DNA from: Jhaorihella thermophila
GTDB lineage: Bacteria; Pseudomonadota; Alphaproteobacteria; Rhodobacterales; Rhodobacteraceae
Length of the DNA: 64,000 nucleotides
Direction: 5' to 3'
Assembly (NCBI RefSeq): GCF_900108275.1
Contig: NZ_FNVD01000004.1
Coordinates: 1 to 64,000 of the forward strand
Shown here: positions 59,441 to 63,956 of the stretch, in pieces
How the letters are laid out: every line of letters begins with the position of its first letter
How positions within the stretch are numbered: position 1 is the stretch's first letter
Made by a program: the position numbers and the translations under genes
The notes under the pieces: model-generated
What the model was told of the DNA's origin: nothing
The model's database searches: none
The model's input: the letters and a program-made list of their open reading frames with translations, nothing else

Positions 59441-60934
59441 ATGTCCGCCACCATCCGCCTCGATCCGTCCGACAATGTCGTCACCGCCCTGCGCGCCCTG
59501 CGCGCGGGCGAAGAGGGTGCGACCCAGCCGATCCCCCGCGGACACAAGCTGGCCACGCAGCCCATTCCCGCGGGCGAGGCGGTGCGGAAATACGCGCAGG
59601 TGATCGGCTATGCCGCCCGGGACATCGCGGCGGGCGAGCATGTGCACACCCACAACCTGGAATTCCGCAACGTGTCGCAGGAGTATGAATTCGCCACCAA
59701 CCTGCGGCCCGCCGAACCGGTCGCCCGGCCCGATACCTTCATGGGCTATCGCCGCGCGAATGGCCGGGTGGGCACGCGCAATTACATCGCCGTGCTGACC
59801 TCGGTTAACTGCTCGGCTACGGCGGCGCGGATGATCGCGGCGCATTTCACCCCCGACCGCATGGCCGCCTATCCCAACGTGGACGGGGTGGTCGCCTTCG
59901 TCCACGGCACCGGCTGCGGCATGGCCGGATCGGGCGAGGGGTTCGAGGCGCTGCAACGGGTGATGTGGGGTTATGCCCGCAACCCCAACGTGGCCGGCGT
60001 GCTGATGGCGGGGCTGGGCTGCGAGATGAACCAGATCGACTGGCTGGTCGAGGCCTACGGGCTGACCCCCGGCCCCCTGTTCCAGGCGATGAATATCCAG
60101 GACGTGGGCGGGCTGCGGCGCACGGTGGAACTGGGCATCGCCAGGGTCGAGGCGATGCTGTCCATCGCCAACGAGGCCCGGCGCGAACCCTGCCCGGCGT
60201 CCGAGCTGATGGTTGCCCTGCAATGCGGCGGGTCGGACGCGTGGTCCGGCATCACCGCCAACCCCGCGTTGGGTCATGCCTGCGATCTGCTGGTGGCGCA
60301 GGGCGGAACCGGAGTTCTGGCCGAAACCCCCGAGATCTACGGTGCCGAACATTTGCTGACCGCCCGCGCGGTGTCGGCGGAGGTGGGGCAGAAACTGGTG
60401 GACCTGATCCGCTGGTGGGAGGATTACACCGCCCGCAATCGTGGCAGCATGGACAACAACCCAAGCCCCGGCAACAAGAAGGGCGGGCTGACCACGATCC
60501 TTGAGAAGTCGCTGGGCGCGGCGGCCAAGGGCGGCACGACCCCGCTCACCGGCGTCTACAAATACGCCGAGCCGGTCACCGCGCGCGGCTTCACCTTCAT
60601 GGACAGCCCCGGCTACGACCCGGCCAGCGTGACGGGACAGATCGCGTCGGGCTGCAATCTGGTGGCCTTCACCACCGGGCGCGGTTCGGCCTTCGGCTCC
60701 AAGCCCGCGCCGACGCTGAAGATCGCCACCAACACGACGATGTATGACCGGATGACCGAGGACATGGACGTGAACGCCGGCCGCATCCTGACCGATGGCG
60801 CCTCGGTCGAGGAGGTGGGCCGCGAGATTTACGACCGCCTGTTGCGGCTGGCCTCGGGCGAGAAATCGAAATCCGAGGCGCAGGGTTTGGGCGACTACGA
60901 ATTCGTCCCATGGCAGATCGGAGCGGTGATGTGA
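59441..60934 (+). CDS. altronate/galactarate dehydratase family (UxaA/GarD)
   Basis: This is a 497-aa dehydratase. The N-terminal SAF-like domain (residues 1-85, with GEHVHTHNLEF) is fused to the large UxaA catalytic domain (GRVGTRNYIAVLTSVNCSAT, then FVHGTGCGMAG, and the C-terminal KIATNTTMYDRM). Cys and His residues in GTGCGM and QCGGSDAWSG are candidate metal ligands. It should dehydrate altronate, galactarate or a similar acid sugar brought in by the TRAP transporter. It starts 60 bases after dctM. Confidence 0.88.
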   Translation: MSATIRLDPSDNVVTALRALRAGEEGATQPIPRGHKLATQPIPAGEAVRKYAQVIGYAARDIAAGEHVHTHNLEFRNVSQEYEFATNLRPAEPVARPDTFMGYRRANGRVGTRNYIAVLTSVNCSATAARMIAAHFTPDRMAAYPNVDGVVAFVHGTGCGMAGSGEGFEALQRVMWGYARNPNVAGVLMAGLGCEMNQIDWLVEAYGLTPGPLFQAMNIQDVGGLRRTVELGIARVEAMLSIANEARREPCPASELMVALQCGGSDAWSGITANPALGHACDLLVAQGGTGVLAETPEIYGAEHLLTARAVSAEVGQKLVDLIRWWEDYTARNRGSMDNNPSPGNKKGGLTTILEKSLGAAAKGGTTPLTGVYKYAEPVTARGFTFMDSPGYDPASVTGQIASGCNLVAFTTGRGSAFGSKPAPTLKIATNTTMYDRMTEDMDVNAGRILTDGASVEEVGREIYDRLLRLASGEKSKSEAQGLGDYEFVPWQIGAVM

Positions 60935-60941
60935 GGTCGGG

Positions 60942-61038
60942 GGGATGGCATCCCGCCCGATCCGCGCAGCGAACCGGGATGCGCCCGCTCGCCCCGCAGG
61001 CGGGCGCCCTCTGCGCCCCCCTCGGGCGGACGCATCCC
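60942..61038. repeat. nested inverted repeats in the spacer after the dehydratase
   Basis: The spacer holds GGGATG-g-CATCCC (60942-60954), then GGGATGCG (60976) pairing with CGCATCCC (61031-61038), with an inner stem GCGCCCGC/GCGGGCGC between. The sharing of GGGATG arms suggests a repeated mobile-like hairpin unit. No gene lies in this 139-base gap. Confidence 0.6.
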
Positions 61039-61073
61039 TCGCGTGTCTCCCTTCACACAGGAGCTGATATCCC

Positions 61074-62114
61074 ATGACCGCGCCGCTGCCCCTTGCCGTG
61101 ATCGGCGGTGGCTCGATCGGCCAGCGCCACGCGCGCCTCGCCGCCCTGTCGGACGAAGTGCGCCTGACCGCCGTGGTCGAACCGAACCCGGCCCGCCGCG
61201 CGGAACTGGCCGACAAGGGCCTACCGGTGGCGGACACGGTCGAGGCTGTTCCGCCCGACACCCGCGCGGCCATAATCGCCACCCCGACTCAGAGCCATTG
61301 CGCCGACGCGCTGGATGCGCTGTCGCGGGGCTGGGCGGCTTTGGTGGAAAAGCCCGTCGCCGCCACCCTGGCAGAGGCCGACCGGATGATCGCCGCCGCC
61401 GATACCGCCGGCCTGCCGCTTTTCACCGGACACCACCGGCGCTGTCACCCCTTCGTTGCCATCGCGCGCGACAGGCTGGCGCAAATGGGGGATCCGGTCG
61501 CGGTGCAGGGCATCTGGGCGCTGCGCAAGCATGACGGCTATCACGATGCCGCCTGGCGTGTGGCGCGGGGCGGGGGGCCGGTGCTCATCAACCTGATCCA
61601 CGACGTGGACCTGTTGCGCCTGCTGGCGGGCGAGATCGTGCAGGTTTCGGCCATGCTGTCCAGCGACCGGCGCGGCGGGCCGGTCGAGGATACCGCCGCG
61701 ATCTGCCTGCGCTTTGCCTCCGGTGCCCTGGGGACGTTCCTGCTGACCGATGCCGGCGCCTCGCCCTGGGCGTTCGAGGCCGCAACCGGCGAGAACCCCG
61801 CCATCGCCACCACGCACGAGGACTGCTGGCGTTTCATCGGCACGCGGGGGGCACTGTCCTTTCCGTCGCTGGCGCTCTGGCGCGACGCGGCGGGGGGCGT
61901 GCCCGACTGGTCGCGGCCCATGCTGATGGTGCAGGAGGGAGACCTGCCGACCGTCGATCCGCTGGAGGCGCAACTCTCCCGGTTCGCCCGGGTCGCACGC
62001 GGCGGGGCGGATCCGCTGCTGGCCACCGGCGCGGACGGGCGCGCCGCGCTGGCCGTGACACTGGCGGTGCTGGAGGCCGGGGCCGAGGGACGCCCTGTGA
62101 CGGTGACGCCGTGA
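61074..62114 (+). CDS. Gfo/Idh/MocA family oxidoreductase
   Basis: This is a 346-aa NAD(P)-dependent sugar dehydrogenase-like enzyme with LAVIGGGSIGQRHARLAAL at the start, the E-K-P motif ALVEKPVAATLAEADRM and the HHRRCHPFVAIAR and VLINLIHDVDLLRLL blocks. The catalytic His region is HDVDLLR. It probably oxidises or reduces a sugar acid in the same pathway. Its stop overlaps the next start by four bases (GTGA). Confidence 0.88.
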   Translation: MTAPLPLAVIGGGSIGQRHARLAALSDEVRLTAVVEPNPARRAELADKGLPVADTVEAVPPDTRAAIIATPTQSHCADALDALSRGWAALVEKPVAATLAEADRMIAAADTAGLPLFTGHHRRCHPFVAIARDRLAQMGDPVAVQGIWALRKHDGYHDAAWRVARGGGPVLINLIHDVDLLRLLAGEIVQVSAMLSSDRRGGPVEDTAAICLRFASGALGTFLLTDAGASPWAFEAATGENPAIATTHEDCWRFIGTRGALSFPSLALWRDAAGGVPDWSRPMLMVQEGDLPTVDPLEAQLSRFARVARGGADPLLATGADGRAALAVTLAVLEAGAEGRPVTVTP

Positions 62115-63079
62115 CCGCGCCCCCAACCCAGTCCCGCACCCTGCGCTGCGGCCTGATCGGGGCCAATATCGGCCGCTCGCGCTTTTCTGCGGGGTTGGAG
62201 ACCTTGTGCGACCTTGCGGGGATCAGGTTGGACTTCACCGCAATCGACACGGCGGGAAAGCCGGCGTTCGACCTTGCCGGGACGGTCGCCGCCCTGCGGG
62301 CCGAGGGCTGGGACGGCGTGGCCATCACTCATCCGTGGAAATCGGCGGCGGCGGACCTGATCGGGCGTGAGATTTCCATCGCGCCCGACACCGAGGGGGG
62401 GCGCAATCGCGCCCGCCCTGGGGGGCGGGGTCGGGCGCGGTCCGGGCCTTCGGCCCGGACAGGATCGCAGGAAACGGCGACGCGCCTTGGCGCCGTCAAC
62501 ACCCGGATCTTCACGCCGGACGGTATCGCCTGCGCCAACACCGATTGTTCCGGCTTCATAGCCGCGTGGCGCCATTTTTTCGGCGACAGTCCGCCGGGCA
62601 GCGTGGCCATGGCCGGGGCAGGGGGCGTGGCCCGCGCCCTCGCCCCCGCGCTGGCCGAGCTCGGGGCCACCGAAATCACCGTCTGGGACACCGACCCCGC
62701 CCGCGCCCGGGCGCTCGCCGCGCTGGTCGGCCCCGCCTGCCGGGCGATCCCGGCCGACAGGGCGCCGGAAGCGATCGCCACCGCCGACGGCCTCGTCAAC
62801 GCCACCGCCTGCGGCATGGCGGGCTATCCGGCCTCGGCCTTCGCGCTGCCGCTGCCGAACCGACCCGCCTGGGCCTTCGATGCCGTCTATACCCCGGTAA
62901 ACACGCGCTTTCTGTCCGCCGCGCGGGCGGCCGGGGCGCGGACCCTCACCGGGTTCGACCTGTTTCAACACATGGCGCTGGCCAGTTTCCGGGCGCTGAC
63001 CGGGATCGCCCCCGATCCCGTGTTCGCCCTGCCGAGACTTTCCGCGCTCAGACCAAAGGAGGAATACGACAATGCCTGA
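62111..63079 (+). CDS. shikimate dehydrogenase-like oxidoreductase with an internal insertion
   Basis: This is a 322-aa AroE-family protein, start GTG at 62111. The catalytic-site GVAITHPWK holds Lys77, NTDCSGF holds the substrate Asp, and MAGAGGVARALAPAL is the cofactor loop. Residues about 94-122 (Gly/Arg/Ala-rich) have no place in the family and are encoded by GC-rich hairpins; without them the length would be about 293, near normal. In a sugar-acid operon it is likely a YdiB/quinate- or hydroxyacid-type dehydrogenase, not the housekeeping AroE. It overlaps the next gene by eight bases. Confidence 0.78.
   Translation: MTAPPTQSRTLRCGLIGANIGRSRFSAGLETLCDLAGIRLDFTAIDTAGKPAFDLAGTVAALRAEGWDGVAITHPWKSAAADLIGREISIAPDTEGGRNRARPGGRGRARSGPSARTGSQETATRLGAVNTRIFTPDGIACANTDCSGFIAAWRHFFGDSPPGSVAMAGAGGVARALAPALAELGATEITVWDTDPARARALAALVGPACRAIPADRAPEAIATADGLVNATACGMAGYPASAFALPLPNRPAWAFDAVYTPVNTRFLSAARAAGARTLTGFDLFQHMALASFRALTGIAPDPVFALPRLSALRPKEEYDNA
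62399..62460. repeat. GC-rich hairpin unit inserted in-frame in the AroE-like gene
   Basis: Two perfect stems are present: GGGCGC-aatc-GCGCCC (62399-62414) and GTCCGGGCC-ttc-GGCCCGGAC (62440-62460). They lie inside the coding sequence and code for the extra Gly/Arg-rich segment of about 28 residues. The form resembles intergenic palindromic units. Confidence 0.65.
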
Positions 63080-63956
63080 AGAACGAATCGGATTCATCGG
63101 CCTGGGCCTGATGGGCCGCGCCATGGTCGAATGCCTGCAAAAGAACGGCTATTCCGTCACCGTGATGGGCCACCGCGACCGCACCGGAGTCGAAGAAGCG
63201 CTGGCCCGCGGCGCGACCGAGGCGAAAACCGCCCGCGAACTGACCGAGGCAAGCGACATCGTGATGTTCTGCATGGGCACCTCCGACCAGGTTGAATCCC
63301 GCGTCTATGGCGAAGACGGCGTGCTGGCCGGGCTGCGACCGGGACAGATCGTGATCGACTTCGGCACCTCTCTGCCGGCCTCCACCAAGAAGATCGGCGC
63401 CGACATGGCGGCCAAGGGGGCGACCTATCTCGATGCGCCGCTGGGGCGCACGCCGGCGCATGCGGTGGAAGGGCTCTTGAACATCATGTGTTCGGGCGAC
63501 AAGGCCGCCTATGACCGGGTCAAGCCGATCCTCGATGTGCTGGGCGAGAATGTGTTCCACCTCGGGCCGCTGGGGGCGGGGCACACGATCAAGCTCATCA
63601 ACAACTTCTACGCCATGACCACCGCCTGCGCCATGTCCGAAGCCTTTGCCATGGCCGACCGCGCCGGGGTCGAGCGGCAAAAGCTCTATGACGTGATGGC
63701 CGCCGGGCCGAACCATTCGGGCATGATGGACTTCATCAAGGCCTATGCCATCGACGATCAGATCGCGCTGGCCTTTTCGGTGAAGAACGCGGCCAAGGAC
63801 GTGGGGTATTATGAACGGATGGCCGAGGATCTGGGCGCGCCGTCGCAGATGGCGGTCTGCGCCGACCGCGCCTTGAACACGGCGATCGCCGCGGGCAAGG
63901 GCGAAATGCTGGTCCCGCAGATGGTGGACTGGTTTGCAGGGGAGAAGAGCAAATGA
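63072..63956 (+). CDS. 3-hydroxyisobutyrate dehydrogenase family (tartronate semialdehyde reductase-like)
   Basis: This is a 294-aa beta-hydroxyacid dehydrogenase. The NAD motif is IGFIGLGLMGRAM, the substrate block DAPLGRTPAHAVEG follows, and the catalytic lysine is in GAGHTIKLINNFY. Such enzymes reduce tartronate semialdehyde to glycerate in aldarate breakdown (GarR) or act on other hydroxyacids. It overlaps both neighbours and is followed by an SDR. Confidence 0.88.
   Translation: MPEERIGFIGLGLMGRAMVECLQKNGYSVTVMGHRDRTGVEEALARGATEAKTARELTEASDIVMFCMGTSDQVESRVYGEDGVLAGLRPGQIVIDFGTSLPASTKKIGADMAAKGATYLDAPLGRTPAHAVEGLLNIMCSGDKAAYDRVKPILDVLGENVFHLGPLGAGHTIKLINNFYAMTTACAMSEAFAMADRAGVERQKLYDVMAAGPNHSGMMDFIKAYAIDDQIALAFSVKNAAKDVGYYERMAEDLGAPSQMAVCADRALNTAIAAGKGEMLVPQMVDWFAGEKSK

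Follow-up and report, generated by a model that had tools for sequence, protein, structure and literature searches.

A segment inside an AroE-like gene of Jhaorihella thermophila appears to be an inserted and now translated palindromic repeat, one member of a family of small, non-coding elements restricted or nearly restricted to Rhodobacteraceae. We give this explanation as a whole a probability of about 0.86. The gene lies in the window, that is, the whole stretch of 64,000 nucleotides that was analysed. An earlier note, made from the letters of the window alone, had proposed that an intergenic type of element had entered a gene with the reading frame kept, and this idea is borne out in that the unit belongs to a dispersed, mostly intergenic repeat.

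The inserted segment

The features of the gene, of the inserted element and of a second copy nearby are as follows.

62111..63079, forward strand: AroE-like gene, host of the insertion; GTG start, 322 aa, shikimate/quinate dehydrogenase family
62366..62467, forward strand: codons 86-119, the stretch that holds the net insertion (alignment of 83 homologues)
62376..62460, forward strand: whole element copy, a long interrupted stem and then a second hairpin (model R1 and RNA fold)
62376..62443, forward strand: module A, the repeated conserved part, with 5' arm, G-rich arm, C-rich arm, G bulge and 3' arm (71-copy alignment, pair counts, same-genome copies)
62440..62460, forward strand: module B, a perfect 9-bp hairpin of copy-variable sequence (21-mer found in the window copy only)
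60951..61046, reverse strand: second, weaker element copy (model R1, 36.7 bits, E 4e-5; also in the genome search)

In a scan of the window, model R1 matched 62368-62468 with 62.0 bits (E 7.6e-10). The DNA of the insert folds with -70.1 kcal/mol, compared with a mean of -51.3 for shuffled sequences (z = -4.7; 0 of 200 shuffles as low). A GC-rich double hairpin in frame in the AroE-like ORF was present as the earlier note had described it, but of its "two perfect stems" only that at 62440-62460 (9 bp) is perfect, the first stem being long, with small interruptions and a G-rich bulge. The extent that had been given, 62399-62475, also needed correction: the element spans 62376 to 62460, so that its start is shifted by about 23 nt in the 5' direction. 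The hairpin GTCCGGGCC, which had been put forward as the sequence to search for, proved unique, since its 21-mer (62440-62460) has one exact match in the genome, the window itself; a search for copies succeeded with the repeated part, the module 5' of it, which occurs in five places including itself. The Gly/Arg/Ala-rich stretch that had been noticed between the Lys (K77) and NTD (143-145) motifs is indeed encoded in the ORF.

Relative to homologues, the net insertion in the AroE-like gene amounts to 31 codons (93 nt). In an alignment of the best ORFs of 83 loci, which followed a check proposed in the earlier note, the segment was missing from all 82 other AroE-like homologues that span the site, and conservation of it as protein in distant orthologues was not found. 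One further sequence (L073) is truncated at the insert site and was therefore not counted as spanning, and in three cases the same gene entered the set from two collections (L011/L031, L021/L042, L026/L047). The nearest homologues are about 54% identical, and in the other genome of the genus that was compared (G001) only the other AroE paralogue was found, so that it offered no empty site for this gene at the DNA level.

The host gene and its protein

The AroE-like ORF contains PF08501 and PF01488, with scores barely above the Pfam cut-off, and falls under the equivalog cut-offs of NCBIfam profiles, so that any substrate assignment is provisional. Both the top PDB sequence match of the protein and the best fold match of its predicted model (TM 0.89 by target) are 3jyo, the quinate/shikimate dehydrogenase of Corynebacterium glutamicum. 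K77, N143-T144-D145 and G169-G171-G172 are invariant in an alignment of 52 sequences, and the host protein has the fold and the family motifs of the AroE/shikimate dehydrogenase family. K77 and D145, which we take to be the catalytic pair of the enzyme, are retained in the insert-bearing protein. The gene overlaps the preceding gene at GTGA and the next gene at ATGCCTGA, and the operon therefore looks intact. A crude codon model scored the 300 nt 5' of the element as neutral, though a better one gave a positive value there (0.28 over 150 nt).

The AlphaFold model made from the 52-sequence alignment has a mean pLDDT of 90.2 overall and of about 50 over the insert, which is flanked by intact helices 77-90 and 115-126. 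In this prediction the enzyme fold is preserved and the insert forms an extra, disordered loop, and the tolerated surface loop that the earlier note had envisaged would fit such a model. As K77 opens its helix and the insert begins at the opposite end of that helix, the insert is probably away from the active site.

A dispersed repeat family of Rhodobacteraceae

A 111-nt query from the window matched five places in its own genome, itself included, and a covariance model built from 71 copies gave seven genome matches (E <= 0.1), including one that hits the opposite strand of another copy. The same-genome copies that were read carry a different hairpin at the 3' position, in the place of module B. 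The weaker copy at 60951-61046 lies in a spacer (a UxaA-like gene ends at 60934 and a Gfo/Idh-like gene starts at 61074), 1.3 kb upstream of the in-gene copy, in the same gene cluster, in opposite orientation and 5' of the Gfo/Idh-like gene.

The strict core pattern, CGCCCGCCCN{2,8}GGGCGGGN{0,1}TCGGGCG, was present in 60 of 295 genomes of Rhodobacteraceae, compared with 1/295 for a reversed-pattern control. In a class-wide sample, it was found in three of 385 genomes, five of the 385 being members of the family, and in 1/380 outside the family; these counts suggest that the repeat is restricted, or nearly so, to Rhodobacteraceae. The core pattern is also present in two viral contigs (L298 and L299). 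On plasmids, blastn with a typical copy (L196) returned 59 records (Leisingera, Phaeobacter, Tritonibacter, Ruegeria), and with the window copy as query there was no match. No earlier description of the repeat in Rhodobacteraceae was found in the literature searched, which lay largely outside subscription papers.

From the places found, 147 copies were examined (for G221, 12 of its 24 copies were fetched). At first 112 were classed as full, and a stricter filter left 111 compact copies, 71 of which were used for the covariance model and the pair counts. A typical compact copy starts with the 5' arm GGGCAGCGCCCGGCCCG and the G-rich arm AGGGTGGGCG; a short loop leads to the C-rich arm CGCCCGCCCT and a G run, and then come the 3' arm, which in the 71-copy alignment complements the 5' arm, and a hairpin of variable sequence.

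Fold of the repeat

Among the 71 aligned copies 94.4% of cells pair, and the fold is maintained, as shown by compensatory changes: double-change cells number 112, where shuffles give 36.9 and slid controls 11-23, the latter weighing more since related sequences inflate covariation counts. In 70/71 copies there is also a match to the 3' arm at the position that precedes the C-rich arm, with three pair types, and a second pairing, of the middle arm with the 3' arm and mutually exclusive with the first, is therefore kept as well, over about 8 bp only.

A fold so strong and so well maintained, with a middle arm that covaries with the 3' arm (70/71 at one column pair) and two exclusive folds possible, is what would be expected if the repeat were a functional structured RNA or a cis-regulatory element such as an attenuator, an mRNA stabiliser or a small RNA, the in-gene copy then controlling the operon and not being accidental. 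G-U cells also far exceed A-C cells (139 vs 21), but this strand bias comes mostly from two fixed G-U columns, because it drops to 34 vs 21 when they are left out. We consider this reading possible but improbable. Rfam gave no match at gathering score in 14 loci and two sub-threshold hits in five loci, and a promoter and terminator scan of 60800-63200 detected nothing, no terminator-like site being found near the in-gene copy. Moreover, copies are dispersed to unrelated genes and are polymorphic between strains.

Placement in the genome

Most copies lie between genes, with at least four in-gene among the 147 (the window copy, L112, L174 and L230). Gene orientation was called, approximately, from a codon score trained on aligned CobN and AroE-like ORFs for 97 of the 147 copies and was unclear for the other 50: 68 are between codirectional genes, 24 between convergent and five between divergent ones. 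Convergent and divergent gene pairs are equally frequent on a circular replicon, and for this reason 24 vs 5 is unlikely to arise by chance (p 5e-4). The excess between convergent genes would suit a structured RNA, as would a copy near a pheT-like gene whose location is conserved between the two genomes of the genus (L004 in G000 and L119 in G001). Against it, copies at codirectional genes have no orientation preference (31 sense vs 37 antisense).

The same placement recalls REPs, which are small palindromes found mainly downstream of genes, some of them wholly in ORFs, in several genera, as far as the available text of PMC3733652 describes them. A classical REP/BIME unit moved by a RAYT (Y1 transposase), with the transposase since lost from the genome, would account for a repeat that is palindromic, extragenic and more frequent between convergent and codirectional than between divergent genes, and intragenic REPs are likewise described in that text (PMC3733652). 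This origin is nevertheless quite unlikely. By eye, the majority consensus of 71 copies has neither GTAG nor CGTC, the unit exceeds the 20-40 bp that the abstract of that paper states for REPs (PMC3733652), and PF01797 was found in one of 18 genomes, being absent from G221 and G143, which are among the most copy-rich of those listed. Twelve of these 18 genomes carry the repeat, among them the single positive one (G126).

In-frame copies in other genes

To find in-gene copies, Pfam was run on 30 of the 101 ORFs that span a copy, a requirement that finds in-frame cases by design. Families assigned by Pfam and confirmed by NCBIfam were CobN for L112 and L174, from two genomes, and NnrD/YjeF for L230. 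Of 31 aligned CobN ORFs, L112 and L174 alone contain the insert, and of 25 aligned NnrD ORFs L230 alone does. In the CobN of G051 (L237), an insertion of unrelated sequence occupies the variable loop where L112 and L174 carry the element, which suggests a permissive site. Out-of-frame in-gene copies were looked for by a flank test without the spanning-ORF requirement, and none were found at its limited sensitivity; the codon score used, trained on the aligned CobN and AroE-like ORFs, has 67.7% sensitivity per 150-nt flank at the in-gene-test threshold, and it replaced an earlier codon-usage test that separated the strands poorly. Three in-gene candidates from the codon test (L117, L206 and L207) were rejected, as these copies lie just after a stop codon.

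On Leisingera plasmids the repeat is also inside annotated xdhC (L300, L307-L309). Among 17 xdhC records that cover at least 80% of the gene, eight are 1002-1008 nt long (five from L. aquaemixtae and three from L. caerulea) and nine are 894 nt, including two from L. caerulea; the XdhC insertion is thus polymorphic among strains of Leisingera caerulea, with and without the element. Ten of the 17 alleles were aligned, four with the insert and six without, and none has an internal stop; the covariance model located the element in 4/4 of the former and 0/6 of the latter. One insert-bearing allele has a 6-nt deletion within the insert, with the frame kept. The sequence adjoining the insert suggests that the filled allele may have reached L. 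caerulea through recombination with L. aquaemixtae. When filled and empty XdhC and TRAP loci were compared, the flanks were too diverged to define a target duplication.

The element is not read in one way in these genes. In the AroE-like gene the C-rich arm begins at sense codon position 2, in both CobN genes it begins at 0, and in NnrD and XdhC the element is antisense. With frames that differ and both strands in use, no peptide is conserved among the in-gene copies. Of 111 copies, 73-94% are open in a given frame, compared with 74-82% in shuffled sequences, and the openness of the repeat is therefore mainly a matter of GC content, not of selection for a peptide. The high GC and the Gly/Arg-rich encoded peptide of the AroE-like segment could also be understood as a genuine lineage-specific protein insertion that looks palindromic owing to GC-rich codon bias. 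Its fold (z -4.7) speaks against this, and the dispersed copies exclude it, since members of the same DNA family also occupy intergenic spacers and genes of unrelated families, where frame and strand differ; its likelihood is negligible.

On the reading that we prefer, a repeat copy inserted into the AroE-like gene, whose reading frame is intact. Most insertions into genes would be lost, and the survivors would be those that fell in a loop between secondary-structure elements, added a multiple of three nucleotides in all and brought in no stop; as a GC-rich repeat of this kind is mostly open whatever the frame, such survival would be easier. The enzyme is probably still an active dehydrogenase that carries an extra disordered loop of some 30 residues, which would be neutral or nearly neutral. 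Intergenic copies, if they act at all, would probably do so as a transcribed stem-loop near gene 3' ends. Neither a clean boundary nor a target-site duplication was seen for the repeat, and no transposase was identified (PF01797 in 1/18 genomes).

Relation to known palindromic repeats

The best-known cases of palindromic repeats inserted in frame come from Rickettsia, a genus that is hard to manipulate. The Rickettsia palindromic elements (RPEs) are 105-150 bp long and occur between genes and in frame in many unrelated genes, in places predicted to be tolerated, and they are described as encoding a conserved peptide (available parts of PMC10969869 and PMC2229807). Set beside RPEs so described, the Rhodobacteraceae repeat is likewise a palindromic repeat of an alphaproteobacterial lineage, intergenic and in frame in unrelated genes (AroE-like, CobN twice, NnrD, XdhC). 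Unlike them, it has no common peptide and no preferred frame, being read in two sense phases and antisense, and it is mostly extragenic (at least four in-gene among 147), the two families being compared by description and not by sequence. With its palindromic fold and in-frame copies, it works like an RPE-like coding palindromic element.

Like REPs, including intragenic REPs, it is a small palindrome with some copies inside ORFs (accessible portion of PMC3733652), but it differs in having no GTAG/CGTC tag, an 85-nt two-hairpin unit, few copies per genome and no RAYT link. MITEs such as ERIC and Correia are non-autonomous short repeats that can fuse in frame, and in-frame fusions of a short repeat are a point of likeness, within what the available text of PMC2229807 covers; for the repeat, neither a parent transposon nor a target-site duplication was identified, the XdhC and TRAP flanks being too diverged to define one. 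The order of its arms, G-rich, C-rich, G-rich, would allow a triplex motif, judged by eye only, as in intrastrand triplex motif repeats (TM); the words Rhodobacter, Paracoccus and Roseobacter are absent from the main text of the TM paper, as far as that text was available (PMC4666352). By analogy, we class the repeat as the same kind of behaviour as RPEs and intragenic REPs in what would be a new family with an unusual three-arm design, set apart from RPEs by description. It offers a comparable and structurally defined repeat in free-living culturable bacteria (plasmids of Leisingera and Phaeobacter among others), and with the XdhC insertion present and absent in one species, the neutrality of the insert and the movement of the repeat become testable.

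A long-loop class

Outside the compact class are 36 copies, 27 of which were aligned as long-loop (L103 among them is doubtful), while nine have no recognisable G arm. In 14 of the 27 the loop is 69-70 nt, with little sequence shared between genomes and the same conserved arms.

Copies with a loop of 69-70 nt: L107, L116, L124-L126, L154, L155, L157-L161, L217, L003

The RNA fold of one long-loop copy is weak (z -2.1). A more speculative and rather doubtful reading is that the family is a mobile conformational switch, in which near-identical 5' and middle arms compete for one 3' arm with both pairings kept by covariation, and which would serve as a structured mobile RNA or as the single-stranded DNA substrate of a transposition or recombination system, seeding in-frame protein loops. 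If that were true, the switch would have a second size class with near-constant loop length, divergent sequence and the same arms. In G126, five long-loop copies (L116, L157-L160) share flanks on both sides, as in a larger repeat.
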